A stretch of 41,486 bases of DNA from positions 1 through 41,486 of the forward strand of contig WGDO01000007.1 of assembly GCA_015493225.1 (NCBI GenBank). The letters are read 5' to 3'. The stretch is from Patescibacteria group bacterium. Its GTDB lineage: Bacteria > Patescibacteriota > Minisyncoccia > Moranbacterales > DUUL01. The first letter of the stretch is position 1, and the number at the start of each line of letters is the position of its first letter. Below are positions 7,604 through 36,123 of this stretch, in pieces. Made by a program: the position numbers and the translations under genes. The notes beneath the pieces were generated by a model. That model was not told where the DNA came from and did not search any database. It saw nothing but the letters and a program-made list of their open reading frames with translations.

Positions 7604-10600
7604 TTAATCTGAGTCACCATCGCCACCTTCAGGATCATCCCACTCACAGCTGTATCCAGTCCAATCCCAGCCCGCTCCTTTTTTCAAACATTCAGCTTCT
7701 TTCTTGGCCGTGTTATTTAAAACACATCTTCCTCCTCGCCAAATATAACCACCTCTATTTAAACAAGCTTGCTGATCTGATATACAAGCACGGGCATTAA
7801 AATCCCAACTAGTACCTCCACCACAGGAGTGCGCTTGTGATTTAATAAATTGTTCTCGAGCGTTATTTATGACTCGCCTCTGACTAGACAAACTGGATAC
7901 ACGAGATTGAAGCTCTAACCGCCTTTTTTGATCAGTAACCCTGTTAAGTTCCTCTTGTAATTTTAAAATTTCTCTATCAATCTCTCTAATTTTATCATTA
8001 AAATTATTTGTAACATAACTCATAACAGTTCCCTTTGCCTTGTGTAATTGCTTAGAAACATCCGTTACACAATCCTGATCATGTCTTCGGTAACAATCAC
8101 TCAACTTATTACTTAGATGGATGTAGTCATTTACCACATTATTTCCCGGTAAATAATCAACAGTATTAGCCTCTAAAACACCTGGCAAAGCTCTAACATT
8201 CATTGCCCGAGTAAACTCATTCTGAACCATTCGCTCTGCTATATCAAATATCCCTTCTAACCCAGCCATTCCAGCAATTTGTCCCAATGGCGTATTCTTT
8301 AATGAATTATTGACAATTCTATCTACCGCTCCTATATCATTATTTGCCAAAGCTTGATTAATACGCCTCATATCGTTAGGAGCAATGTTATTATTTAATA
8401 AATTGGGAGCAACAGCCTCTTCGGTAGTCCGTTGCCATTCTTTTAACATTCTTTCCGACGGTCCACCAGTACCAATTCCAAAAGCACCAGCTATAGCGCC
8501 CAATGCACCACCAATAACTGCCCCTATTGGTCCATAAATTTCCCCTCCAACCGTAGCTCCAGCAGCAGCTACTGTTGCCACACCAACTGTTTCAGCATGA
8601 ACCGTCCCAGTTTGCACCAAATCCATTCCTATAGCCATCAACATCGAAACAAATGGCACTATAGCCGTAGCAGCTTGAGCGGCAGTCTGAGATCCTGCCG
8701 CCTCTAAAATTGCTTCATTAGTAAGTGCTTGATCTATAGAACCAGAAATAGCAATATTATTTACAGCATCAAGACCAACTGTATCTATTAGTGTTTGATT
8801 AATAGCATTTTGAACCGCCTGTGTAGCTAAATATTGACTAACCACAGCATTAGTAATTTCAGTCGTAATAACCCCCTGCCCAACATCTATTGCTGTTCTT
8901 TCCAAGTCTATACTACCATTATTTATTAATTGCCCTATAACACTACTACCAAATGATGACAATCCAGTTGTAACAACCCCCGTTTGACCAATCGGCATAC
9001 TCCCCTCTCCCCAAAGACTGGCATTATTATTTATTACTTCTGTTAAATAGCCTGATGACACATCTGTTGCAAACACCTTCACTGTTTCTCCAATATCCCC
9101 TGTACTAACAAGAGTAGCAGCAGTGTGTTCCATGGCATTACCAATATAACCATTCAAAGAATCATGGACATCCGTACTAATTAAATTATTTTCCGCCAAT
9201 GTATCCCAGGCAGCATTAAGGGCTAATCCTCCAGCACTTTCCACTAAACGATCCGTATCACCCAAAGACACAGCCGAAATAACACCTGTCGCCAAATCTG
9301 CCAATCCACTTTGCAATGATGTTAGATGCTTTTCCCCGTCGTTTCCAGGATCACCAAAAAGTTGTCGGGCCGCTTCCTGCCCAGTACTTTGGATAACATT
9401 TTCAGCCAAAATTCTAGTTCCCTGGTCAGCAGTCAAAGTTCCATTACTTAACATTCCCAAAACTTCTTTTGACCCTCTCGCCAAGCCATTAACTAGACCC
9501 GAATCTAAAAATTGATCCAGATTAAAATTATTAGGCACCTGCGATTGTACTTGTGACTGTGACTGTTGTACATCCACCTGACCAGATTGCACAGCCTCCT
9601 GCCCAGCTGATTGCAAAACCCCACTATCAATCTGCCCGACTGGAAGAACAGAAGAATCATTAGCTAAACCAGAAATCATATCCGAATTAACATCTCCATC
9701 ATCAGCCAATTTTACCTCATCACTAACTTCAGAAAAATAATTTGATGGATTATCAGGAGTAACCTTAGTATATTCTCTTCCATTATTATCTTTAAATTTA
9801 TCACCAATCTCATTAACAACACTAGAATTAATCCATCGTATATTCCCATCCTTATCAGCATAAGCAATACTTTCAATAACCTCATCTTCCGTAACTTTAT
9901 TTACTTTCACAGACTCTTCTTGCTTATCCCTACTGTTGGCAGCATCTGTTCCTACTTTATACTGAGAACCAAACTCCTCCCCCGCCTGCTCATAAGCAGT
10001 TTTTTCCTTTTTTCCAAATAATAACTTAAAAGGGTTTATTCTTGACCAAAAACTTTTTTCTTCTCTTTCGCTAACTTTAAGTGGTTTAATATTAATTTTA
10101 CTTGACTTATTAACATTACCGCCCCCTGACGCATCACCTCCTTCTATCGCTATTCTTTGATTTCTTTCTCCTGGTTTTATATTCACCAATGAAGCATCTG
10201 TGCCTGAAATAACAGTACTATCCTTATTAATCACAGACTCATTCCTTGGTGTAGTCACATTATCATTTTTATAATCTACTTCTGTGCTTCCACCATCTCC
10301 ATGATCAGAATCTTCATACCCAGTTAAAGTCCCTCTACTATCACTTTTTAAAGCCACCCTGTTATTGTCCTTTTCTGCAAGATCTTCTCCACTATCACAA
10401 AACCAAGTTCCAAAAAAGCACTTTTTATACTCTCCCGTCTTCTTATCCTTTTCATAGCCTTCATCTGGCAATAAATATTGTTTTGAAGTAAACTTTTTTT
10501 CAGAAGTTACAACACTATCATTTTCTCTGCTTGCAACTTTGTCTTTATTCTCACCATTTTTCTCAATTTTAATATCATTTCCTTTATTTATACCCGACTT

Positions 10601-13600
10601 TACTCCCTGATTAACTTGAACAATCGTATCTACTGGGTTTTTTTTACTATCAGCCAATTCAACAGGAGCTCTTTTTAAATTTGTATCCTTGTATGCTCTA
10701 CCCGTATCCGGATTAATCCAGGCTGGTGCCTTTTCAGTTGATATATCATTATTATTCTTAGCTAATTCTGTACCACTTTTACAGCCACTAAAAAAGCTAA
10801 ATATACTTCCCAAGGTACCACATTGTTCATAAGTCTTTTTTCCATTTGTATCTTGAGAAACGGAATAACTCTTTTTTTTGTCTAAATATATTCTTCCTTT
10901 TGGATAATCCTCATTACTAAATGGCAAGACATCTTCCGGTCTTCCTGGTATGTATGTATCATAAGATTTTTGTCCTGCATCAATATTTTCATTGACAACT
11001 TTTTGTGCCTTCGTCGCTGCTTGGTTTATGCCCTCGGCTGCAGAATTTAAAGTTTTCACTAATTGTTGTCCTGCATTACCTACTTGCTTACTTAAATTAT
11101 CTAATGTTTGAGCCCTCTCTTTAGGTGGCATTTGTGATAATCCATAAGCTCCCACAGCAAATAAGGTTGGCGCCCCAATACCAGCAGCTACGGCAGTAAT
11201 CCCAACTGTCTTAATGAGTGCGTTTATTTCATTTTCTGACATACTTCCAACTTTATCTGCCATATTTTTCATTTGAATAATTTCACCTGTTTTATTAAAC
11301 ACACCCAACACTTCATTATTATTACCAACAACAACTTTTATTATTTGCTGTGACCCATTATTAGCTCTTACTTTTACCTCTTTGACAGCATAATCACCAA
11401 CTTTTTTAGAAAAATTTTTGTCAATTCTTTTGTTATTTTGTAAAATATTACTAACCGGCTTAATTACCGAATCTCCTATACCAGATAATATTTGAGCTAT
11501 ACTACTTTCATTTTTTTCAGTTCTAAAAAAAGAATATTTTGTGTTACCCTGAGCAAATTTTTCTCCTCCTTTAGAATAAATAACTTCTCCATTTCTTTTA
11601 ACATAAGCAATTGGCTGTTTATCATTACCATAAATAAGAACATTCCCAGATGGACTTTTTTCTTGTTTTTTCCCTCTAAATTGAGAAGATTGCAATACTT
11701 CCTCTTGAGTTTTAAAAGACTTTCCATCATCAGTTAACATCCGAGAGCTAACAACCTTACCACCATTATCATTAACCTGAGCAGCCCGCTGTAATAAACT
11801 CCTAATTGGTTCATATTCTTTTTTATCATCAGGAGCCGAATAAGTTACTATGGGGTAAGCAGACTTAACTTGTTCATATTTTGATGAACCAAACATGTGC
11901 AATATATTATCTCCAAATAATCTTGAAGTTAACTTAATTGCCACACCAGGTCCTCCCGTAAATATCCCAGCGGTAGTTACCTTATTCATAATTCTAGATC
12001 CCTTTGTTGGAATTTTAGTTAATGGTTGAGACAATATGGCAACATTTTTTGAATTACGCCCTATTAAATAATTCCCTCGTTGCTCCCAGTGCGTTACTTC
12101 GTTATCTTTATGTTTAACAGAGGAAACAACTTCTTTTCTACCACTTGGAAGCACGCTAGGTAATTTATACTTCCCCAATTCAATTGCTTTTGTAAACAGC
12201 CTATCCACTTTCTCTGGATCTTTACTTCTTAGAATTGGACTCCTGAGCATATATCCAGTTTTATCTTCTTGCAAAAGAACAGCCTCTGGCATACCACTCT
12301 TTGTAACAATTACTGCACCACTGGGCATCTTTGTATATTTAACAGAACCATCATTTTTTAACGGGTAATTCTCTTTTAACCATCTTTTCTGTTCACTAAA
12401 TTTAGTATTTTTATTACTCTTTACATCTTGACTAGATGATTTATCAACGGCAACCACTTGCGGTGGATTAGTCCTCCTGTCTTTTGATTCTACATACCCA
12501 TATTTCCTTTTTGCTCTTTCCAACATCTTCCCATCAAAAGGAAGATATTCACTATCTCTCTCAAACAATTTCCGTCCATTAGCCATCGCTACCGGTTGAC
12601 CATTATTCTTATCTTCAACTATTAGTGCATTATTTCTACTCTTAGGAAGTCTTACATAGTTAAATTTATCTATAGGATATTTATCTTTTAATAAATCACG
12701 ATTTTTACTACTTATATCCCTAATATCCTCCTCTGTGCTATACACAGTAAGATCTTTACCAGCCCTTAAGGTTTTATCAGCAAGAGTGCTATCAACATCA
12801 ATTATTATCGGATCATCTACAAACGACACCTTATTTCCGTCTGCCCCAGTCACAAAAGAATTATCTTTATCAATTTGTTCCTGAATACCAGCAATTTCAT
12901 CTCCATACCCACTTTTCATATCATCCTTTCCATATTTCGTCACTGCTTTATTGTAGGCAGTGTCATTATTTTTATCTCCCCCAAACCCCGCAATCATTTC
13001 CCCATCAGTTCCAAAATAATCCTTCGCTTTTTGCTCTGTAATTTGTTTATTTTTATTCCCCCCAAACCAACTCTTAAATTTCTCCCAACCGCTGGACAAC
13101 CAAGCTTTTTTCTCTTTTTTGGAGGTATTAAAAGCACTACCTCCCAATCCTGTTGGGCGAAAATTTCCATTTTCATCATAACCATCACTAGGGGAAGCAA
13201 TAATTGGTACTTGATTTCCATTGTCACTATTTTCCCCAACTAAGCCACTGTTTAATAGTCCCTGTAAACGTTCTCTTTCTTGTATTAATCTGCGCTTAGT
13301 TTCTCGAGAGTCATTACCATTTGAATCTACCCTAATTCCATGTATGTTATTTATTTGCCGATTTATTTCATTAAGTCTTTGCTGGATTTGTATTCTAGAA
13401 GCACCTCTAATAGTACCTGTTGTTGGCATCTTACTCAAATCGTTATATTCGGCAGACCCTTCTATGCTATTTATTAAATCAGCTTCATGTGGATTTTTCT
13501 CGAAAGCTACTTCTTGTTGATTATTGCTAAGTTGATTATTACCTTTATTTGTAGAATCATCCAAGCCAACAATCTCATCACCATAACCATCTTTCATATC

Positions 13601-15739
13601 TGGTTGTATATACTTTTTTGCTAGATCATTATAAGCGGTGTCATTGGTTTCATTTTTCCCATTTTCATCCCCGGCCGTATAAAAACTATCCAAGGCATTA
13701 ACCCTTTCATCACTCTTTTTCTCACCATCGAACCAACTAAATGGATTTAATTTTGATAGCCAACCCTTCTTTTCCTCAACAGCCCTAAGCTTGGCGGATT
13801 GTTGGGAAGTGTTGGTTGGATCTGATTGGATTTCTTGTCTGGTATTATCAGAATATTTCTTCCAAACTTCCGGAGCAGTACCTTTAAATAATCCGGTTTT
13901 TGAATCTGTTACATTTCCATATTGATCTATAACCAAATTAGTATTATCCCCTTCTCCGGCGACACTTTCCTTTGGGCTAAATACTTTTCCGATTAAACCA
14001 TTGAGCCAACCTTCTTTCTTTTTGGCTAATTGAACCTTGTCTCCGGTAATCGGATCAATAACATCTCCATCGGTTTTCGGATTATATGGTCTGGTCTCCG
14101 CATAAAGTTCTTTTTGGTTTCCGGTGGCGTATTGTTTGGTGTCGGCGATTTCATTAAGCAATTTCGCTGCATCTCGTGGAGTTTTAATAATATTTATAAC
14201 TTGAGTAGTGTTACCATTTAAAGATCCTGGAGATTTTTTTTCTATTTCTATTAATTTTTCAACATCATCTTTAGTTATTTTATCTCCATATTCCTTATGC
14301 AAATATTTCATTAAATCATGCCTAAGATACCATAATCTAGTACGCACCTCTCCTAAATCAGTAATATAATCATAGCCAGCTTTTTTATAAGCTTCTGACG
14401 CAACTTTTTTCCACTCATCCTCACTTTTTAATGAATTTTTTATTAAAATTTTTGTCTTTTCTGGAAAGTCCCATCCCCTATTTCCATTCATATCAATAAT
14501 ATGCCCTGCTTCATGTGGAAGCTCATAACCAAGTTCGCCACATTCGGAAGATTCACAATCTTTATCTGTTTTATTTAAAATATCATCTTTATTAAGATAA
14601 ATATCATGTCCACCTACAGTTACCGCCCCCGTTGTTACCCCATTTATATCATTTTGCAATTCTCTACTATCATAACCCACAACTGATATCCTAGCATTAT
14701 CAAGCCTATCTAATCGCCTTTGTCTTGCTGCCTTTGCTTTTTCCTCATCATTATCATACTGAATAAGTAAACGCTTAAAATAAGCTGGGGAAGTTATTTC
14801 GTCACGCATGTTATTTACAATATTTAGAATTCGTTTTTTTAAATCACCACCAGCCACAATATTAATACCTTTATTTTTATTATCAACTATAACTACATTA
14901 GTATCATGTTCATAAGCTTTAGCTGATTGGCAACCCGACTTAAAAATATCTAAAAATCTATTACATTCTTCATAATAATAGTCAGGGTCCTCGATAACAT
15001 GACTATCCTCATCAGAGTTATCATTTAGATCATCTTTACTTTTTTTACGTATGTACTTTTTTCCAACGTCTAAAAAAATATTATCATCTATAGATATAAC
15101 TTGCTTAGTTTCAAATGGGAATATGAGATTATCTCCATAATCATCATCTTCCAAGTCAGAATCACTCTCATCTTCTCCAAACCCTGCTAAAATGTCCGTT
15201 TTTAGTTGCTTGTTGAATAATCCCACAAAGTCTGCCCAAAGCTTTTTGAAAAATCCGATTTTCTTTTTGGGTTGTTTATTGCTTAAATCAATATATTTAT
15301 CAATACCATCGACGCTATCATCATCTTTGCTTTTAATTTCCAGATCTTTATCATCATTATTTTTAGTCGCCTTCAAATCATCACTTAAAGCATCCACGGT
15401 TTTGTCTCCTAAAACCTCTCGAGCCACCAGTTCGGTTTTTAGGTCTGAAAATCCATTGGCAGTTTGCTGATTTTCTGTTTTTTCTTTTTTCCAAAATTCC
15501 CACCAATGACTTTTGGGCTGACTTTCTTGCATAATCTCATCAACTGTAATTGCATCGGCGGTTTCGATAACCTTAGCTTGAGCTACGGCCGGTTCTCCCA
15601 GAAAGTTAAGCTGTCCTTCACTCAATCCCCAAACCAAAAAACTGCCATTACTGGTGGCAAACATTAAAAGGGATAAAATCCCAGCTATAATTTTAGAAAC
15701 TTTTCTGTTTTTTATTTTTTTAGTTTGATTTTTCAACAT
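7604..15739 (-). CDS. Giant secreted multidomain protein (2711 aa) with HEAGH zincin motif, Trp-rich repeats, glycine-zipper segment and C-terminal Cys repeats
   Basis: Uninterrupted ORF; basic N-terminus plus hydrophobic segment (signal); HEAGH motif at 14501-14515; glycine-rich hydrophobic stretch near 8458-8600; three C-(GW-rich)-C repeats at the C-terminus. Confidence 0.9.
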   Translation of the reverse strand: MLKNQTKKIKNRKVSKIIAGILSLLMFATSNGSFLVWGLSEGQLNFLGEPAVAQAKVIETADAITVDEIMQESQPKSHWWEFWKKEKTENQQTANGFSDLKTELVAREVLGDKTVDALSDDLKATKNNDDKDLEIKSKDDDSVDGIDKYIDLSNKQPKKKIGFFKKLWADFVGLFNKQLKTDILAGFGEDESDSDLEDDDYGDNLIFPFETKQVISIDDNIFLDVGKKYIRKKSKDDLNDNSDEDSHVIEDPDYYYEECNRFLDIFKSGCQSAKAYEHDTNVVIVDNKNKGINIVAGGDLKKRILNIVNNMRDEITSPAYFKRLLIQYDNDEEKAKAARQRRLDRLDNARISVVGYDSRELQNDINGVTTGAVTVGGHDIYLNKDDILNKTDKDCESSECGELGYELPHEAGHIIDMNGNRGWDFPEKTKILIKNSLKSEDEWKKVASEAYKKAGYDYITDLGEVRTRLWYLRHDLMKYLHKEYGDKITKDDVEKLIEIEKKSPGSLNGNTTQVINIIKTPRDAAKLLNEIADTKQYATGNQKELYAETRPYNPKTDGDVIDPITGDKVQLAKKKEGWLNGLIGKVFSPKESVAGEGDNTNLVIDQYGNVTDSKTGLFKGTAPEVWKKYSDNTRQEIQSDPTNTSQQSAKLRAVEEKKGWLSKLNPFSWFDGEKKSDERVNALDSFYTAGDENGKNETNDTAYNDLAKKYIQPDMKDGYGDEIVGLDDSTNKGNNQLSNNQQEVAFEKNPHEADLINSIEGSAEYNDLSKMPTTGTIRGASRIQIQQRLNEINRQINNIHGIRVDSNGNDSRETKRRLIQERERLQGLLNSGLVGENSDNGNQVPIIASPSDGYDENGNFRPTGLGGSAFNTSKKEKKAWLSSGWEKFKSWFGGNKNKQITEQKAKDYFGTDGEMIAGFGGDKNNDTAYNKAVTKYGKDDMKSGYGDEIAGIQEQIDKDNSFVTGADGNKVSFVDDPIIIDVDSTLADKTLRAGKDLTVYSTEEDIRDISSKNRDLLKDKYPIDKFNYVRLPKSRNNALIVEDKNNGQPVAMANGRKLFERDSEYLPFDGKMLERAKRKYGYVESKDRRTNPPQVVAVDKSSSQDVKSNKNTKFSEQKRWLKENYPLKNDGSVKYTKMPSGAVIVTKSGMPEAVLLQEDKTGYMLRSPILRSKDPEKVDRLFTKAIELGKYKLPSVLPSGRKEVVSSVKHKDNEVTHWEQRGNYLIGRNSKNVAILSQPLTKIPTKGSRIMNKVTTAGIFTGGPGVAIKLTSRLFGDNILHMFGSSKYEQVKSAYPIVTYSAPDDKKEYEPIRSLLQRAAQVNDNGGKVVSSRMLTDDGKSFKTQEEVLQSSQFRGKKQEKSPSGNVLIYGNDKQPIAYVKRNGEVIYSKGGEKFAQGNTKYSFFRTEKNESSIAQILSGIGDSVIKPVSNILQNNKRIDKNFSKKVGDYAVKEVKVRANNGSQQIIKVVVGNNNEVLGVFNKTGEIIQMKNMADKVGSMSENEINALIKTVGITAVAAGIGAPTLFAVGAYGLSQMPPKERAQTLDNLSKQVGNAGQQLVKTLNSAAEGINQAATKAQKVVNENIDAGQKSYDTYIPGRPEDVLPFSNEDYPKGRIYLDKKKSYSVSQDTNGKKTYEQCGTLGSIFSFFSGCKSGTELAKNNNDISTEKAPAWINPDTGRAYKDTNLKRAPVELADSKKNPVDTIVQVNQGVKSGINKGNDIKIEKNGENKDKVASRENDSVVTSEKKFTSKQYLLPDEGYEKDKKTGEYKKCFFGTWFCDSGEDLAEKDNNRVALKSDSRGTLTGYEDSDHGDGGSTEVDYKNDNVTTPRNESVINKDSTVISGTDASLVNIKPGERNQRIAIEGGDASGGGNVNKSSKINIKPLKVSEREEKSFWSRINPFKLLFGKKEKTAYEQAGEEFGSQYKVGTDAANSRDKQEESVKVNKVTEDEVIESIAYADKDGNIRWINSSVVNEIGDKFKDNNGREYTKVTPDNPSNYFSEVSDEVKLADDGDVNSDMISGLANDSSVLPVGQIDSGVLQSAGQEAVQSGQVDVQQSQSQVQSQVPNNFNLDQFLDSGLVNGLARGSKEVLGMLSNGTLTADQGTRILAENVIQSTGQEAARQLFGDPGNDGEKHLTSLQSGLADLATGVISAVSLGDTDRLVESAGGLALNAAWDTLAENNLISTDVHDSLNGYIGNAMEHTAATLVSTGDIGETVKVFATDVSSGYLTEVINNNASLWGEGSMPIGQTGVVTTGLSSFGSSVIGQLINNGSIDLERTAIDVGQGVITTEITNAVVSQYLATQAVQNAINQTLIDTVGLDAVNNIAISGSIDQALTNEAILEAAGSQTAAQAATAIVPFVSMLMAIGMDLVQTGTVHAETVGVATVAAAGATVGGEIYGPIGAVIGGALGAIAGAFGIGTGGPSERMLKEWQRTTEEAVAPNLLNNNIAPNDMRRINQALANNDIGAVDRIVNNSLKNTPLGQIAGMAGLEGIFDIAERMVQNEFTRAMNVRALPGVLEANTVDYLPGNNVVNDYIHLSNKLSDCYRRHDQDCVTDVSKQLHKAKGTVMSYVTNNFNDKIREIDREILKLQEELNRVTDQKRRLELQSRVSSLSSQRRVINNAREQFIKSQAHSCGGGTSWDFNARACISDQQACLNRGGYIWRGGRCVLNNTAKKEAECLKKGAGWDWTGYSCEWDDPEGGDGDSD

Positions 15740-26080: not shown

Positions 26081-27817
26081 CTACACAACCTCCTGCTGAT
26101 AACACTCCTCACAATAAACCACAAAACCCTTTTTCGGATCATGCGCAGAAACAATTTCCTTCCCACATTTCACACAAACATCCTCAAATAATCTAAAAGT
26201 ATATTTGTATTTGGTTCTCTCCTTTATTCTCTCCAGAGGATGTTTTGTTGGTAGAGGAATATTTTGCTGTTTATAAAAATCAAATTCAGACTTAATAATC
26301 TTAAATGGTTTTTCTGTTTTTTCACAAATAAATACTTTCTGTAGTATGGAATTATCAACCTCTTTGATATTATCTGGAATTTCATTACCGGAGATAGTAT
26401 TCATCCCAGAAAGATCTAACTCAGAATCAACCTCCACATATTTTTGCCAACCCCTGGCTTCAACCTCTTTTTCTGACAAAGGATAATCTACTCCGGCTAT
26501 GGTATCTTGATAAGGATGTAAAGAATTTTTAGTCGGAAAAAATTCCCCGTATTCACCTTTCTTCAGCATTTCTGTTTTAATTTTATCAACCTTCTGCCAG
26601 TATTCTTCTTCCCTATACTGTTTATTAAAAATACAAAACTTCTTGTTTTTTAAACCAACACAGGCAAAACAATATTCACAATTATTACAATCTACACAAT
26701 ATTCCAATTGAAATCCTCCCCTAGTCATCATAGAAAATTTAAGGTCACTAACATTCTCACCCATTCCAGAAGATTCATAGCATCTACTAGGCACAAGGCC
26801 ACCATAAATATCCATTGAATCCTTAATTTGATTTGCATTATACACATAACGAATATTCTCACTTCCCCCAAAAACCCTTACGGCTTCATAACAATTATTA
26901 CATTCTCTTAATAAATTCCCCCTGGAATTATTTATCTTTTCATTGTTGAGATTTTTGTGAATAACTTTTTGTAATAATTCTTGGAATTCTTTTTTCAGCT
27001 GCTTCATAATTCTTCGACTACCAAAATTAATTTCTTGTATTTTCTGTTGATATTCTTCCTTGGATAATTTTTGATTTTTAAAATAATATTTCTGATGTCT
27101 CAAGTTTGCTGACATAAAACAATCCGTACAATTTTTACAATCATAGAGAAAAGCAGAGTCAACACAATCAGAACTTTCCAAAGAATACTTTATATTATAA
27201 CAATGATTAAGATAAACTGAGTCATAGCAAACCTGAGAATTATCCACATCAGCCACATCCATACTATCTTTAGTATTCATAGCAATAACAGAATAATCAA
27301 CATTCTCTGAATCCATGGGAGCAAAAGAATAATAACAATTTTTAGAATTATTTCCAGAAACGGTATATTCACAACCCACCGAAGCTAAGTCACGAGAAGA
27401 AGCCTGGTGAGGAACAGACAATTTAAATTTATTAAATTGTTTAAAAAAACTCTTCTTTGCATCATAGTCCCAAGTGAAATCCGATGCCGTCCATTCATTG
27501 GAAATAAAATATTTATCATCATAAATTTTTACCGGATTTTTTTCCGAATAAAACGAAATTACTTTTTCGCTATGACTGGGAGCAGAACAAGTTTTTTTAT
27601 AGAAGATTGGCAAAACAACTCGATGGGACATTCTTCTTTGCATCCGACATTGGGGACATAAAGTCGGTGGCGGAACTTGCAATTTTTCATAAAACTCAAT
27701 ATCTTCCGTCATAATTTCAAATTCCCCATCACACTCCTGACATTTTCTTTTATGCGGTTGAAGATTGTTTAAAATCTCTCCCAACGCCTCATCAAATTTT
27801 GGTGTTTTACCTGGCAT
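26081..27817 (-). CDS. Cys-rich zinc-ribbon protein with central S/D/C/Y repeats, uncharacterised
   Basis: CxxC knuckles at both ends (CQECDGEFEI...CPQCRMQRR; CVKCGKEI...CEEC) and repeats such as NSKNCYYSFAPMDSENVDYSV, SQVCYDSVYLNHCYNIKYS, SSDCVDSAFLYDCKNCTDCF. Confidence 0.75.
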   Translation of the reverse strand: MPGKTPKFDEALGEILNNLQPHKRKCQECDGEFEIMTEDIEFYEKLQVPPPTLCPQCRMQRRMSHRVVLPIFYKKTCSAPSHSEKVISFYSEKNPVKIYDDKYFISNEWTASDFTWDYDAKKSFFKQFNKFKLSVPHQASSRDLASVGCEYTVSGNNSKNCYYSFAPMDSENVDYSVIAMNTKDSMDVADVDNSQVCYDSVYLNHCYNIKYSLESSDCVDSAFLYDCKNCTDCFMSANLRHQKYYFKNQKLSKEEYQQKIQEINFGSRRIMKQLKKEFQELLQKVIHKNLNNEKINNSRGNLLRECNNCYEAVRVFGGSENIRYVYNANQIKDSMDIYGGLVPSRCYESSGMGENVSDLKFSMMTRGGFQLEYCVDCNNCEYCFACVGLKNKKFCIFNKQYREEEYWQKVDKIKTEMLKKGEYGEFFPTKNSLHPYQDTIAGVDYPLSEKEVEARGWQKYVEVDSELDLSGMNTISGNEIPDNIKEVDNSILQKVFICEKTEKPFKIIKSEFDFYKQQNIPLPTKHPLERIKERTKYKYTFRLFEDVCVKCGKEIVSAHDPKKGFVVYCEECYQQEVV

Positions 27818-28068: not shown

Positions 28069-30060
<1,992 letters not shown>

Positions 30061-30205: not shown

Positions 30206-30288
30206 TACAATTGACATTTATCTGTATACAATTGACAAACAATAAGAATAATATTATAATATTTTTAGTTTTGAGATGGACTCAAAAC
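30206..30288 (+). promoter_or_regulatory. Consensus sigma70-type promoter (TTGACA 30232-30237, 17-nt spacer, TATAAT 30255-30260) with duplicated upstream motif and a hairpin at the predicted start site
   Basis: TACAATTGACA at 30206-30216 and 30227-30237; AACAATAAGAATAAT at 30178-30192 and 30238-30252; GTTTTGAG-ATGGA-CTCAAAAC at 30268-30288. Confidence 0.85.
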
Positions 30289-30321: not shown

Positions 30322-31416
30322 ATGACTTCACACAACAAAAAAATATTAAATATTGTCAATGGTGCCTTGAAGCGCTGGAAAGGCAAAACTATTTTGGATT
30401 TCCTTTCAGGCTCAATGAAATTAAGTGATACTCAGTGGCTACTATCATACCTTTTTGAGAATATCACAAATAAACTGAATATGACTCACATCATCAATCA
30501 AAGAACCAGAGATGCCTTTGTGCAACCGTGTGAGATTGATCAACGAATGCTTCAATTCTTTGATCGGATAGCCTCAGATACTCTTGGGAAAAAATATTCT
30601 ATGGTAGAGCTCTCACCACTCGCCAGTATTGGAAGTAACAGTTTGCTAACAAAAATTCAACAAGCAAATATACTGCCAACTTCTCGAATGAATGAGCTAG
30701 TTGCAGATATTGCGGTTGCACTTTCCATTGAGAGTGCACTGAAATATCGTAACACCAACAAGGAAGTATGCACTGCCTCAAGTCACAGGATTGTTCGGGT
30801 TCAAAACGTTAGTTCAATTCCCGGTTTTACACAACATTTCCGAATGTTTGGTCTTTGTTATATCGACAAATTTACAAATATGTCGGATATGAAGCCACTG
30901 GAAGAACAGCTTAGATTTTATTTGGATTTAATTAATCGATTATCAGATATTGGCACAGTACAAAATGTTAGCGTCTATTTATCTAACATTTTAGCAAGTA
31001 CACATATTATCAAAAAAAGTAGTCTTGCGATGGAGGAAGTGCGTAGTATGACAGATTGCGAAGATGAATATGATCTGTGCACCAAGTGCAACATGGATTG
31101 CACACGATACTCAAAAACAATATCCAATGTAGATACTAGCGTAAAAAGAATGCTAAAACCTCTTTACCCGATTATAGAAATATTACGCATGGAATACCCC
31201 AACGTGACAATTCTATATGACTTGGGAAGAATTGCCGGGATTGGCTACTACAATGGTATATGTTTTAAAATTACTGCCTGCAACAAAGATGGATTCGAAT
31301 TCCCTCTCGTTGATGGTGGATTATCCGATTGGGCAGCAAAGCTACTCCATAACAAAAAAATCGCTTGCATAACCAGTGGCATTGGAAGCGAATTGTTTTG
31401 TAAAAAATTTTTATAG
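30322..31416 (+). CDS. HisRS/HisZ-like class II aminoacyl-tRNA synthetase paralog
   Basis: C-terminal YDLGRIAGIGYYNGICFKI...FEFPLVDGGLSDWAAKLL...ACITSGIGSELF follows the HisRS/HisZ pattern (RG.dYYtG..FE; GGRYD; motif-3 strand). GGGAG ribosome-binding site before ATG. Additional CEDEYDLCTKCNMDC cluster. Confidence 0.6.
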   Translation: MTSHNKKILNIVNGALKRWKGKTILDFLSGSMKLSDTQWLLSYLFENITNKLNMTHIINQRTRDAFVQPCEIDQRMLQFFDRIASDTLGKKYSMVELSPLASIGSNSLLTKIQQANILPTSRMNELVADIAVALSIESALKYRNTNKEVCTASSHRIVRVQNVSSIPGFTQHFRMFGLCYIDKFTNMSDMKPLEEQLRFYLDLINRLSDIGTVQNVSVYLSNILASTHIIKKSSLAMEEVRSMTDCEDEYDLCTKCNMDCTRYSKTISNVDTSVKRMLKPLYPIIEILRMEYPNVTILYDLGRIAGIGYYNGICFKITACNKDGFEFPLVDGGLSDWAAKLLHNKKIACITSGIGSELFCKKFL

Positions 31417-31437
31417 CAAGTAAAACTACCAATGCTT

Positions 31438-31465
31438 AAACGCCCTAATATTAATTAGGGCGTTT
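31438..31465. terminator. Bidirectional palindromic terminator candidate AAACGCCCTAAT-ATTA-ATTAGGGCGTTT
   Basis: Perfect 12-bp stem, 4-nt loop, between convergent genes and overlapping the last codons of the minus-strand gene. Confidence 0.75.
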
Positions 31466-32719
31466 CTCATTCCACCCATGATAACTTAAAAACTGCCCTA
31501 AAGAGACCTTGTCAATCACGTCAGCAAAGCTTTCTTTTTCTAAATATACATAACGTGGAGTTCCATAAACAAATTCTTCTCTCATGACAGATGTATAAGC
31601 CCCACTATTTAATACAGCAACATATTGCCCCTCTGTTACATTAAAAGAAGCCTCGCAAATATGTCCTGCTGGAGAACATATACCATCAACAAAGTGCACT
31701 CTTTCATTAGCACTTAACACATTATCTTTTTTGCAAGGAATAACTCTATAGTTACTGCCAGGAGCAGGAATTAAATAATTTGTACCTATATCAAGTACAG
31801 CCCAAATACCGCCAGGGTTTCTTTTGATGGTTTTTATACGTGCAAATACAATAGTAGCATCAGCTACTATATAACGACCCGGCTCAAAAAAGATATGCGA
31901 TTTTTCCATTCCACCACTCTTAAAAAGTGAAATTATATGCCCCACAAACTCCCCGAAAGCGTAATCGTCTCTAAAAAACATTCTTGGGGCAATGCCACCC
32001 CCAAGATCTACATAGCTACAATCTATGGAAAATCGTTTTTCCATTTCTTTGATAAATTTAATAAAAGATCTAATGGGTTTATCATATGATAAATATTCTA
32101 TTTGATTTGAAAATATATGAAAACTAAATCCTTGCACTTGCAAACCAATTTTTTGAGAGAGCTGAATACATTCAATGGTCTCTTTATAGCTCATTCCTAG
32201 TTTTCCATAACGCTTAACAAAATTACCTTCTCCATCAAATTGAGGATTTATTCTTAACCCTATTTTTACATCAAGTGCAGAAAGTTGTTCCTTGTGCAAC
32301 TCAAGTTTATTAAGCTCAGATAATGAATCAATGTTTACTATTGCCCCAGAAATTAATGCTTCCATTAACTCATCATCTGTCCTACCAAGACCATTCATAA
32401 TAATGTTATCTGGTGAAAATCCCGCCCTTATTGCAAGTAACCACTCATACTCGGAGATCACTTCAGCACCAATACCTGTACCAAGAACTGTATCCACAAT
32501 TCTTCTGTCATAGCATGCCTTTATCGCATAAAACACTTTGCCCTTTGTTTTCTGAATATTATTCTGAAAAATATTAATATTTGATCTCACTCGATCAAGT
32601 GAAACACAAATAGTTGGAGAGGAGTCTTTTGATATTATTTTTGTATACGGGATACCATTAACACATAAAACACCGTTAACGTAGCTAATATATCCGGTAA
32701 TGTTGTATTGACGAAACAT
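31451..32719 (-). CDS. Fold-type III PLP-dependent decarboxylase (diaminopimelate/ornithine decarboxylase-like)
   Basis: FYAIKACYDRRIV (PLP Lys), GFSFHIFSNQ, YVDLGGGIAP, FFEPGRYIVADA, VDGICSPAGHI, LNSGAYTSVM. Confidence 0.88.
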   Translation of the reverse strand: MFRQYNITGYISYVNGVLCVNGIPYTKIISKDSSPTICVSLDRVRSNINIFQNNIQKTKGKVFYAIKACYDRRIVDTVLGTGIGAEVISEYEWLLAIRAGFSPDNIIMNGLGRTDDELMEALISGAIVNIDSLSELNKLELHKEQLSALDVKIGLRINPQFDGEGNFVKRYGKLGMSYKETIECIQLSQKIGLQVQGFSFHIFSNQIEYLSYDKPIRSFIKFIKEMEKRFSIDCSYVDLGGGIAPRMFFRDDYAFGEFVGHIISLFKSGGMEKSHIFFEPGRYIVADATIVFARIKTIKRNPGGIWAVLDIGTNYLIPAPGSNYRVIPCKKDNVLSANERVHFVDGICSPAGHICEASFNVTEGQYVAVLNSGAYTSVMREEFVYGTPRYVYLEKESFADVIDKVSLGQFLSYHGWNEKRPN

Positions 32720-32723
32720 ATTT

Positions 32724-33740
32724 TTATATAACAGTAGGCTCTATTATTTTTATTTGTGCATTTTCATAAGAAACATTCATGATGGCACGTACACCAAGAG
32801 GAAGCGTTACCATAGGATTCGTATGCCCAAAATCTAAATCACTAATAATTGGTATCTTATACTTCTCTCCAAGAGCAGATAAAATATCTACTAAAGTTCT
32901 ATTTTCTGAATCAGTAACAAATTGATATGGCCGAGCAAACAATAAACCTTTAATCTTACTCAATACTCCTATTTGCTCTAAATAATTAAATCGCCTCTCA
33001 GTGTAAGAAGTACTTTCTCCTTCATCTTCAAGAAATAAAATAGAGTCCTTAAAGTCTGGCATGTACTCAGTGCCACCAAGAAAACAAAGTGTGTTCAAAT
33101 TTCCACCCATAAGCACACCTTCAGCAAAACCTAAAGAAACCGATTTCATTGGATTCACTTCTTTCATAATACTAGGACGTGTATCCTCTTTTTCCCACCA
33201 CAAATTCTCATCGGAAGACTCAGTAGCAGATTCAATAGTCCCAATAGGCTCACTAAAAAAAAGTGCTTTTTTAAAATAGTTAAGGGTGTATTCATGCACT
33301 CCACCATATTCTCCAAAAATAGGAAGTAATGTAGGTCCATTAAAGGTTATTAATCCAGTCTTATGTGTTATTGTGTTGTTTAGTATTGTAATATCACTAT
33401 ATCCACAAAATATTTTTGGATTCTTTTGTATTATTCCATAATCAAGTAAGGGTAAAACTGCATTTGCATTTAAACCACCCGTGGAACACATTATTGCCTT
33501 AATTGATCTATCTAAAAACATTTGATTTATATCATCAGCCCTTTCTTGAGGAGTACCTGCATTATGTCCAAAACTCTTTTTTGCATTGTCTGCAAAGACA
33601 ACATCAACCCCAATATTTTCCAATGCCTGTACCCCTCTATTAATCCTCCTTGGAAAAGGCTCGATGGTAGACGAGGGACTCACTATCCCAACACGATCTC
33701 TTTTCTGCAATCTTTTAGGTTTGATGTACGTATTACTCAT
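32724..33740 (-). CDS. S66 family serine peptidase, MccF/LD-carboxypeptidase type
   Basis: VGIVSPSS, CSTGGLNANAVLPLLDY, CGYSDITILNN (Ser nucleophile), GVLMGGNLNTLCFLGGTEYMPDFKDSILFLEDEGES (Glu), DFGHTNPMVTLPLG (His); Trp-rich insert NLWWEKEDTRP as in MccF-like members. Confidence 0.9.
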   Translation of the reverse strand: MSNTYIKPKRLQKRDRVGIVSPSSTIEPFPRRINRGVQALENIGVDVVFADNAKKSFGHNAGTPQERADDINQMFLDRSIKAIMCSTGGLNANAVLPLLDYGIIQKNPKIFCGYSDITILNNTITHKTGLITFNGPTLLPIFGEYGGVHEYTLNYFKKALFFSEPIGTIESATESSDENLWWEKEDTRPSIMKEVNPMKSVSLGFAEGVLMGGNLNTLCFLGGTEYMPDFKDSILFLEDEGESTSYTERRFNYLEQIGVLSKIKGLLFARPYQFVTDSENRTLVDILSALGEKYKIPIISDLDFGHTNPMVTLPLGVRAIMNVSYENAQIKIIEPTVI

Positions 33741-34561
33741 GTTTTTTTACTTAAAAACAACTCCACTTCATCTTTCATTTTCCTCTTTTGGAACAATAAA
33801 ATCGAATACCCCGCATGTTGCAAATTTTCATTAAACAACTTATAGAAATATTCTGCCTTTTTCCTAATTAAATACTGTTCGTTTTTTTTAAACTGCAAAA
33901 CCTCATCTTTTTGCATCAAATAATTAATATATCCCGCGATATCATCTCTTGCATCAAGATAACGATAGTCTTCGCTAAAGAATAACTCTGCTGCAAATCC
34001 TGTAGTCTCTGCTATTTGTGTAATTAACTCTATCCAATCATGTTTATCTTGCACTTTTACCTCAACACCTATTGCTTCAGATACCTCCCCTAGCATTTCT
34101 CGAGATGGGCTTTCTATATAGTAAATTGGAATAAATACTAAAATACCTCCTAATTTCAAAACACGCATATACTCTGAAACAGCCTTTTCTTTATCGGAAA
34201 TGAAAGACGTTACGTTACTACACCAAATCATATCAAAAGAAGAATCTTCAAATGGAAGATTGCAGGCATCAGCATTTAAAAAAGAGACCCTATCTTCTAC
34301 ACTGTGCTTGATAGCATATTTTTCTGCTTTTGCGATAGAAGAAACATTTGCATCAATCCCAACCACTTCACATCCTGTAAATAAGCTGAGATTAACACTT
34401 GTAAAGCCAGTATTACTACCAATCTCAAGTATTTTTTTTGAAGGATTTAATTGAGAATTAATCGCTACAGTATGAACTGACTTAATTCCACCTGAAGGAC
34501 GATTTCTTTCATCTATAAGACCAACAAATTCAGAATAATTCATTTTAGTAATATCTTTCAT
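33737..34561 (-). CDS. Class I SAM-dependent methyltransferase
   Basis: ILEIGSNTGFTSVNLS (motif I), VVGIDANVSSIAKAEKYA, FEDSSFDMIWCSNVTSF, RVLKLGGILVFIPIYY. Confidence 0.92.
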   Translation of the reverse strand: MKDITKMNYSEFVGLIDERNRPSGGIKSVHTVAINSQLNPSKKILEIGSNTGFTSVNLSLFTGCEVVGIDANVSSIAKAEKYAIKHSVEDRVSFLNADACNLPFEDSSFDMIWCSNVTSFISDKEKAVSEYMRVLKLGGILVFIPIYYIESPSREMLGEVSEAIGVEVKVQDKHDWIELITQIAETTGFAAELFFSEDYRYLDARDDIAGYINYLMQKDEVLQFKKNEQYLIRKKAEYFYKLFNENLQHAGYSILLFQKRKMKDEVELFLSKKT

Positions 34562-34565
34562 AACT

Positions 34566-35684
34566 TTATGGATAAGTTATAACACCTTTTAATCTTGGAT
34601 AAATTGTAGTATTTTTTATATCATCCTGTGCTAATGCCCATGTTATAAAACGCTCTATCCCCAACCCAAATCCAGACGTTGTGGAGTATGTTGGTTGCCT
34701 TCTTAAATCTATATACCATTCGTATGGCTGAGCAGAAATATTTTGTCTTTTCAAAGATTTATACATTTCTTTTACATCACTCTGCCTTTCTCCACATCCA
34801 ACAATTTCTCCTCCGAAAGAATTTTTCAATAATGGTGGAAATAACAAATCTGCATTAATAACCTTATTTGAATCACTACTAGTCGGTTTCTGATAAAATG
34901 GTACTCTGTCCCTATCAAAATTATTTATCCAAATTGGCATATCTGCTTTTAATAATTTCATTAACTCCAATTCTCCGTCAGCACTAATATCCCTCCCTTT
35001 GCTTGTATAATTAATTAAATGTTTTTTGTCATTTCTCTCCAAGAGCTTTACAGCGTCATCAAAAGATATTTCTTTGAATCTTTTTTGTTTTAATATATTT
35101 TTTAAACTACTTTTAGTTTTATTACTATTTTTTGATATCACTGCCAATATATCTTCCGCTTCCAACAATACTTCACTCAACTTCTTTATGTACCCTTCGA
35201 TAATTGGCTTTACTTCTGTCTGTGTTCCTATCATTTCCATCTCACAATGATAAAATTGATTCAAATGCCTATTGTCAAAATCTTCACCTCTCATAGATGG
35301 TAAATAGCAATACACTCTACTCAACCCGTTCAACAGCAATGGCTCAAATCCAAATTGAGATGAATCCACTAAAAAAGAATCAACATTACCAAATTTTATT
35401 GAAATTGCCTCTGAGTCTGAGCCTGGTCCCATAGGAGAAGATACACTTGGCGTAAGCATAAACAAATCAACATTTTTAGCATCCATACTTACACTAAAAT
35501 AATAATCTGACATCAGCTTGATGTAACTCCTCAAATAAACCAGCGCTAAATAGTATTTATGTTTCGTTAAGTGCAGATAATGCTCATTTGAACTATATTT
35601 TGGCACTTTAAAAATATCACAATTTTTATTGTGAAATTTTTTACCATCCCCCTTTATCATTTTTGATATATACAATGGCAACAT
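34566..35684 (-). CDS. AsnRS-like class II synthetase catalytic core without the N-terminal OB-fold anticodon domain (AsnA-like or amide ligase)
   Basis: Motif 2 SRVYCYLPSMRGEDFDNRHLNQFYHCEMEM; motif 3 SGFGLGIERFITWALAQDDIKNTTIYPR; about 80 N-terminal residues instead of an OB domain. Start codon uncertain (35684 or an internal ATG). Confidence 0.85.
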   Translation of the reverse strand: MLPLYISKMIKGDGKKFHNKNCDIFKVPKYSSNEHYLHLTKHKYYLALVYLRSYIKLMSDYYFSVSMDAKNVDLFMLTPSVSSPMGPGSDSEAISIKFGNVDSFLVDSSQFGFEPLLLNGLSRVYCYLPSMRGEDFDNRHLNQFYHCEMEMIGTQTEVKPIIEGYIKKLSEVLLEAEDILAVISKNSNKTKSSLKNILKQKRFKEISFDDAVKLLERNDKKHLINYTSKGRDISADGELELMKLLKADMPIWINNFDRDRVPFYQKPTSSDSNKVINADLLFPPLLKNSFGGEIVGCGERQSDVKEMYKSLKRQNISAQPYEWYIDLRRQPTYSTTSGFGLGIERFITWALAQDDIKNTTIYPRLKGVITYP

Positions 35685-35715: not shown

Positions 35716-36123
35716 TTATCGCTTGCTCCATTGAGGTGAGCGACGAGCTTTCTTGAGTCCTGGTTTCTTTCGCTCTTTTTGTCGAGGATCTCTTTTTAGG
35801 TAATCCAAATCTTTTAATGCTCTCTGGAATTCACCATCAAATTTAACCAAGGCCCTAGCTAATCCCAATTGAATGGCTTCTGCCTGACCTCTTTGCCCTC
35901 CACCATTTACCTTAATGGAAATATTAAACCTATCCTTAGCCGAAACAGCCTCCAAGGGTGAAAAAGCAGTTGTTTCTAATTCCTTGGTATCAAAAAAACC
36001 ATCTAATTCTTTACCATTAATAACAGTCTCTACAGACTTTTTAACCTCAGTAATTCTAACTCGAGCAACGGAAGTTTTTCGTCTCCCTACTCCTTCATAA
36101 TATTGTTCTTTTTTACTACTCAT
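35716..36123 (-). CDS. rpsI: 30S ribosomal protein S9
   Basis: YYEGVGRRKTSVARVRI...VNGGGQRGQAEAIQLGLARALV...DPRQKERKKPGLKKARRSPQWSKR. Confidence 0.98.
   Translation of the reverse strand: MSSKKEQYYEGVGRRKTSVARVRITEVKKSVETVINGKELDGFFDTKELETTAFSPLEAVSAKDRFNISIKVNGGGQRGQAEAIQLGLARALVKFDGEFQRALKDLDYLKRDPRQKERKKPGLKKARRSPQWSKR

Follow-up and report, generated by a model that had tools for sequence, protein, structure and literature searches.

What would a bacterium make with two class II aminoacyl-tRNA synthetase (aaRS) paralogs, a peptidase, a decarboxylase and an S-adenosylmethionine (SAM)-dependent enzyme encoded side by side? This question is raised by a locus in a Patescibacteria group bacterium, a member of the candidate phyla radiation (CPR). 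Here we analyzed positions 1 to 41,486 of contig WGDO01000007.1 (assembly GCA_015493225.1), and refer to this whole 41,486-nucleotide stretch as the window. Judged from sequence comparison, the five genes at 30,322 to 35,684 encode the biosynthesis of a non-hydrolysable aminoacyl-nucleotide and self-immunity to it, a reading that we hold with a probability of about 0.74. The product would probably be aminopropylated as microcin C is, with no ribosomal peptide. A compact specialized pathway with repurposed class II aaRS had already been proposed in an initial annotation of this DNA, and it is supported by recurrence in unrelated genomes; what is new here is the filing of the cassette under agrocin 84 together with MccD, MccE and MccF. 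The features of the locus are as follows.

30232..30260, plus strand: putative sigma-70 promoter, consensus TTGACA-N17-TATAAT (12/12 consensus match)
30322..31416, plus strand: HisL, a HisRS-like catalytic-domain paralog with no anticodon domain (364 aa)
31451..32719, minus strand: fold-III pyridoxal phosphate (PLP) decarboxylase, MccE-N-like (422 aa)
32724..33740, minus strand: MccF-type S66 peptidase, probable self-immunity (338 aa)
33737..34561, minus strand: MccD-like SAM-dependent transferase, probable 3-amino-3-carboxypropyl transferase (274 aa)
34566..35684, minus strand: AgnA-like synthetase (AsnRS core), predicted amino acid-nucleotide coupling (372 aa)

The minus-strand genes are spaced by 4 bp, −4 bp (an overlap) and 4 bp in the list of open reading frames (ORFs), and HisL converges on them across a 34-bp gap. 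The five genes are flanked by gyrB (28069-30048) and rpsI (35716-36123), and the AgnA-like gene follows rpsI on the same strand after only 31 bp. The putative promoter, recognized by its consensus match alone, lies 61 bp upstream of the HisL start codon. The ORFs thus bear out the five genes, coordinates, gaps, convergent HisRS-like gene and gyrB/rpsI flanks of the initial annotation, and its protein families are borne out by Pfam and NCBIfam for the minus-strand genes and by a structure model for the HisRS-like gene.

The AgnA-like synthetase and its partners

The AsnRS-core gene is a member of the AgnA (agrocin 84 synthetase) family. In Pfam, its product matches PF00152 alone (101.7 bits, residues 102-365), with no anticodon domain and no OB-fold. 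It is 54-62% identical to plasmid and CPR homologs, including 54% over 372 aa (full length) to a Bradyrhizobium plasmid gene, and about 31-32% identical to AgnA of pAgK84. Class II motif 2 (R132) and motif 3 (R345) are invariant in the AgnA-like alignment. In the tree, a branch with support of 100/99 splits the AgnA family from AspRS- and LysRS-type outgroups, with no true AsnRS rows included, and the window protein falls in a clade of 35 rows, most of them CPR genomes, together with a Calothrix and a Bradyrhizobium plasmid. This mixed clade makes transfer of AgnA-family genes between phyla likely. In strain K84, AgnA is the truncated AsnRS of the agn operon and AgnB2 is the resistant LeuRS (PMC4392301, PMC5059758). 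The AsnRS-core paralog of the initial annotation therefore stands as a repurposed class II aaRS, corrected by identity and tree to an AgnA-family synthetase. On Pantoea agglomerans plasmids (L012, 9713-10996), an AgnA-like match lies within a gene annotated as a GNAT acetyltransferase, beside an MFS transporter gene. By its sequence this gene is apparently a GNAT-AgnA fusion, in which the GNAT portion may provide immunity in the manner of MccE2.

The three other minus-strand proteins were compared with those of one E. coli mcc cluster (E-values are for a search of four proteins). The methyltransferase (Methyltransf_11, 73 bits in Pfam) is 29.6% identical to MccD over 162 aa (E=1e-21), and its top match in the PDB is MccD 5FCD (E=1.6e-15), with residues 4-166 aligned, including the region before the SAM-binding domain. 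Its best plasmid matches are methyltransferases of agrocin-type clusters. Methyltransferases near AgnA genes fall into three families, MT1 to MT3, and MccD-likeness is clear for MT1 alone (26/26 at 51-106 bits, other families at 18 or below). Because the window protein is MccD-like, it more likely transfers a 3-amino-3-carboxypropyl group than a methyl group. The MT1 clusters L011, L103 and L104 also have a gene of the nucleoside phosphorylase family, whose product may clear the methylthioadenosine released when an aminocarboxypropyl group is transferred, the task of Mtn beside MccD (PMC10491745).

The decarboxylase (Orn_Arg_deC_N, 115.5 bits in Pfam) is 26.5% identical to the MccE N-domain over 275 aa (E=1e-15). 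It keeps the PLP motifs and lacks the CESxD motif of diaminopimelate (DAP) decarboxylase, with CSPAG where CESGD is expected. The nearest relatives found (E about 1e-41 to 1e-43) come from two AgnA clusters of Streptomyces that also hold an MccD-like gene and an S66 gene, and each of the three DapD-type decarboxylases near AgnA (window, L107 and L108) sits in an MT1 cluster that has S66. Microcin C receives the aminopropyl group on its phosphate through the joint action of MccD and MccE (PMC10491745). The methylation and decarboxylation of a metabolite that had been suggested for this locus thus keep their two genes, with likeness to MccD favoring aminocarboxypropyl transfer and the decarboxylase paired with it.

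The S66 peptidase has the S66 N and C domains (Pfam), is 36.4% identical to E. coli MccF over 324 aa, and scores 201 bits to MccF structures versus 112 to muramoyltetrapeptide carboxypeptidase. MccF S118, W186, E243 and H311 align with S115, W181, E238 and H306. We take S115, E238 and H306 to be the Ser-Glu-His triad and W181 the MccF-specific loop Trp. The grouping with MccF and the kept Ser, Glu, His and Trp agree with the MccF-type immunity proposed earlier, and the peptidase is a probable self-immunity enzyme. MccF hydrolyses the amino acid-nucleotide bond, and MccF, MccE2 and the S51 protein MccG all confer immunity (PMC9239234).

Recurrence and module exchange

Co-occurrence of these families was first detected using the window proteins alone. 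We then scanned 85,462 species genomes with two peptide patterns of the AgnA alignment and kept the best 80 of 141 loci, 28 of which carry CPR names. Scan, plasmid and whole-genome loci, minus two fragments, gave 87 clusters, in which genes up to 8 kb from AgnA were scored with six-frame profiles. These profiles derive from the scored loci themselves, and the counts describe the family rather than test it independently. S66 is found in 69/87 clusters and a methyltransferase in 68/87 (MT1 in 30, MT2 in 28 and MT3 in 11). With a single exception, each cluster has one methyltransferase family, and MT1, MT2 and MT3 are exchangeable modules. The decarboxylase is found in three clusters, all with MT1 (p=0.04; some loci are closely related, which makes the cluster p-values optimistic).

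AgnA-type cassettes recur in many CPR lineages, Bacillota and Actinomycetota, and the same families stand together in dozens of other loci, so the five-gene grouping is not due to chance. The initial annotation had proposed asking whether these families recur in unrelated genomes, and they do. It had also noted that such a cassette stands out in CPR; it is unusual, with an AgnA-family gene in 4/384 genomes of a phylum sample (about 1%), and it is not unique to this contig. In the literature searched, there is no description of this cluster family beyond AgnA itself. A Bradyrhizobium elkanii plasmid (L006, 10988-14773) has S66, AgnA-like, HAD and methyltransferase genes adjoining nodU, possibly an antibiotic locus of soybean rhizobia.

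In other clusters, genes for LeuRS, AspRS, LysRS-like, GlyRS, ProRS and HisRS proteins lie near AgnA; Peribacillus has AlaRS there, and Bacillus pseudomycoides GluRS. With AgnB2 as the model, these companions are probably resistant copies that name the target. Some of them, in particular those at a distance of several kb, may simply serve housekeeping. The GlyRS-group clusters L068, L072, L080, L085 and L102 all carry AlaL, a truncated AlaRS-like protein (5/5; the GlyRS assignment was checked with NCBIfam for two members), which points towards an inhibitor of the glycyl type. Also found near AgnA are genes for GNAT, S51 and nucleoside phosphorylase proteins, which are established or plausible parts of microcin C systems. 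The window cassette has no companion aaRS, so its target cannot be read from it.

HisL and AlaL

HisL is a divergent HisRS-like protein of a family with no Pfam model of its own, scoring 17.6 bits against HisRS, below the cut-off, and no HGTP (anticodon) domain was found in it. A structure model built from 15 homologs (pLDDT 78.8, pTM 0.80) matches GCN2-HisRS-like, HisZ and HisRS folds with TM-scores of about 0.5-0.6. HisL retains HisRS RGxxYY-like and GG motifs, and its motif 3 reads SGxGxEL in place of GxGxER. In the homologs that reach motif 3, the Arg is Leu or another residue. Canonical HisRS is encoded elsewhere in the genome. With this class II Arg lost, HisL may be unable to activate any amino acid; the fold match in the model agrees with the HisRS/HisZ-like assignment made at first, and the lost Arg speaks against the activating role that came with it.

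The same motif-3 Arg is lost in 17 of 18 aligned members of AlaL, which is of AlaRS origin. HisL occurs in 17/87 clusters and AlaL in 18/87, with no cluster holding both (Fisher p=0.018). Mutual exclusion, different aaRS origins and loss of the same Arg together suggest that HisL and AlaL share a role that does not need normal ATP binding. The AgnA-methyltransferase-S66 order with a convergent HisL in five other clusters of the window's clade indicates that HisL is part of the system despite its opposite strand. A homolog on a Chroococcidiopsis plasmid (L008, 11995-12954) has no annotated AgnA-like gene nearby, and HisL may also act alone.

A broader and more tentative proposal, which we consider possible rather than probable, is that AgnA clusters together make up one large, modular family of aminoacyl-nucleotide antibiotics that occurs widely in CPR and has passed between phyla. 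Dead HisL or AlaL would be an exchangeable part of it, either a toxin-binding immunity factor or a non-adenylating recognition or transfer subunit, and the window would combine agrocin-type coupling with microcin-type aminopropylation. We know of no aaRS paralog with either of these roles.

Proposed pathway, alternatives and known systems

The chemistry, product and target that we infer are these. A stable aminoacyl-adenylate mimic, similar to agrocin 84/TM84, would inhibit an aaRS of a competitor or host while the producer is protected. By analogy with AgnA, the AgnA-like core would use ATP to activate a carboxylate and form an amino acid-nucleotide conjugate. The MccD-like enzyme would then add the SAM-derived 3-amino-3-carboxypropyl group to the phosphate and the MccE-N-like enzyme would decarboxylate it to aminopropyl, as suggested by homology and by the pairing of the two genes. 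Cleavage of the amino acid from the nucleotide by the MccF-like S66 peptidase would provide self-immunity, the best-supported part of the pathway. HisL would either recognize the amino-acid part during synthesis or bind the product as extra immunity.

Several points weigh against this pathway. The plasmid pAgK84 has an MT1 gene, yet agrocin 84 bears no aminopropyl group, and an MT1 gene by itself is thus no proof of aminopropylation; in the window cassette it is the decarboxylase that makes this modification somewhat more likely than not. Clear MccD homology is confined to residues 4-166 of the methyltransferase, and the decarboxylase is just about 27% identical to MccE. The decarboxylase also matches a CPR LysA-type protein at 124 bits, compared with 142-146 bits for the Streptomyces relatives, and the genome has a DapA homolog, which leaves some room for a lysine role. 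The cassette has no exporter, uptake part or nucleoside-modifying genes. No resistant copy of a target aaRS is found among the ORFs of 27-38.5 kb, and the genome, which is about 91% complete, has no obvious extra aaRS copy in the families searched (GluRS, AlaRS and others were not searched). Immunity should then rest on S66 and perhaps HisL.

The genes could also be ordinary metabolism gathered by chance: an archaeal-type AsnA, a DAP decarboxylase, an LD-carboxypeptidase for cell-wall recycling and an unrelated methyltransferase. The best NCBIfam matches of the synthetase, decarboxylase and peptidase are indeed to AsnA (164 bits), LysA (158 bits) and muramoyltetrapeptide carboxypeptidase (142 bits), and the decarboxylase is the sole fold-III decarboxylase found in this DapA-containing genome. 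However, these scores are far under the curated cut-offs (389, 298 and 378, respectively), S66 groups with MccF, and the gene set recurs in many phyla, including on the known agrocin 84 plasmid. Lysine biosynthesis as the main role of the decarboxylase was rejected on the absent CESxD motif and the low LysA score. We consider ordinary metabolism very improbable; these enzymes do not resemble the ordinary AsnA, LysA and peptidoglycan recycling enzymes.

A protection island with no biosynthesis, in which S66, HisL and the other proteins would bind or break down aminoacyl-nucleotide antibiotics that neighbors make, would fit the lack of an exporter, the mostly stand-alone occurrence of S51-type resistance genes (PMC9239234), and a HisL with its own consensus promoter and lost motif-3 Arg. 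It is unlikely given that AgnA keeps invariant class II catalytic motifs and is tied to known production in strain K84, and that the counterparts of the MccD- and MccE-like genes in microcin C serve biosynthesis. Slightly less likely still is that the aaRS-like ligases make something other than an aaRS inhibitor, for example a metallophore, a signal with an amide bond, or a lipid or peptide that carries a modification. Siderophore and butirosin pathways employ fold-III decarboxylases from the clade of the window enzyme (PMC7857480), and no target aaRS is visible in the window cassette; yet family-wide, AgnA is accompanied by full-length aaRS of eight specificities, MccF, GNAT and S51, which fits aaRS inhibitors and not metallophores.

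The source genome is a 1.3-Mb assembly of 87 contigs, about 91% complete. Rfam gave no RNA elements inside the cassette. Anti-phage defense was rejected, PADLOC having returned a generic methyltransferase match alone. Viral contigs gave no relatives of the decarboxylase or HisL, and matches of the AgnA-like protein in phage records are just about 23-28% identical. The parts read of two genomes of the same order and one of the same class did not show rpsI beside gyrB, which left the insertion point undefined. Elsewhere in the window, a single ORF of 2711 aa (7604-15739, minus strand) encodes a giant protein for a small-genome bacterium, and a 578-aa cysteine-rich protein adjoining gyrB (26081-27817, minus strand) has weak treble-clef zinc-finger matches. 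At G000:C31:11808-12470, a single in-frame TGA lies within a reading frame resembling a class I aaRS and may reflect sequencing error, frameshift or recoding.

The proposed aminoacyl-nucleotide pathway suggests that CPR bacteria, generally regarded as epibionts with little biosynthesis, are equipped with compact weapons aimed at translation. For an epibiont that touches a host or competitor, a small aaRS poison would be ecologically sensible, and graspetide clusters are a precedent for biosynthetic clusters in CPR (PMC8939145). The pathway would also link agrocin 84 with microcin C, usually treated separately, via common sets of genes for tailoring and immunity. Since the targets are hinted at by the companion aaRS of sister clusters (Leu, Asp, Lys-like, Gly, Pro, His, Ala and Glu), the family could readily guide the search for new aaRS inhibitors, and the biosynthetic role of AgnA becomes testable using small operons.

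Among known systems, the agrocin 84/TM84 cluster (agn, pAgK84) likewise has an AgnA-type truncated AsnRS followed by an MT1 (MccD-like) gene, and its MccF-like AgnC5 parallels the MccF-like gene that accompanies AgnA and the SAM-dependent gene in the window. Unlike agrocin 84, the window lacks the resistant LeuRS AgnB2, the agnC side-chain genes and the N6-glucosyl-phosphoramidate uptake genes, and has an MccE-like decarboxylase and HisL in addition; the AgnA proteins are about 31% identical. With microcin C (mcc) the window shares homologs of MccD, the MccE N-domain and MccF. It has no MccA peptide, ThiF-type MccB or MccC exporter, and the nucleotide coupling enzyme is AgnA-like instead; no MccB homology was found in the five cassette proteins, and just 31 bp separate rpsI from the AgnA-like gene. 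The Streptomyces clusters L107 (S. cinnamoneus JCM 4633) and L108 (Streptomyces sp. SID12501), of which we found no description in the literature searched, share AgnA, MT1, S66 and the decarboxylase subfamily. Both lack HisL, and L108 adds LeuRS, ATP-grasp and a GNAT-like reading frame. Conversely, the CPR-type clusters L060, L061, L064, L067 and L111 have the arrangement of the window, with AgnA, methyltransferase and S66 in a row and HisL convergent, but no decarboxylase, and four of the five carry MT2 in place of the MccD-like MT1. HisL itself shares with HisZ and the HisRS-like domain of GCN2 a HisRS-like catalytic fold without tRNA charging. Its sequence similarity to them is marginal, and in contrast to them it sits in antibiotic-type clusters.

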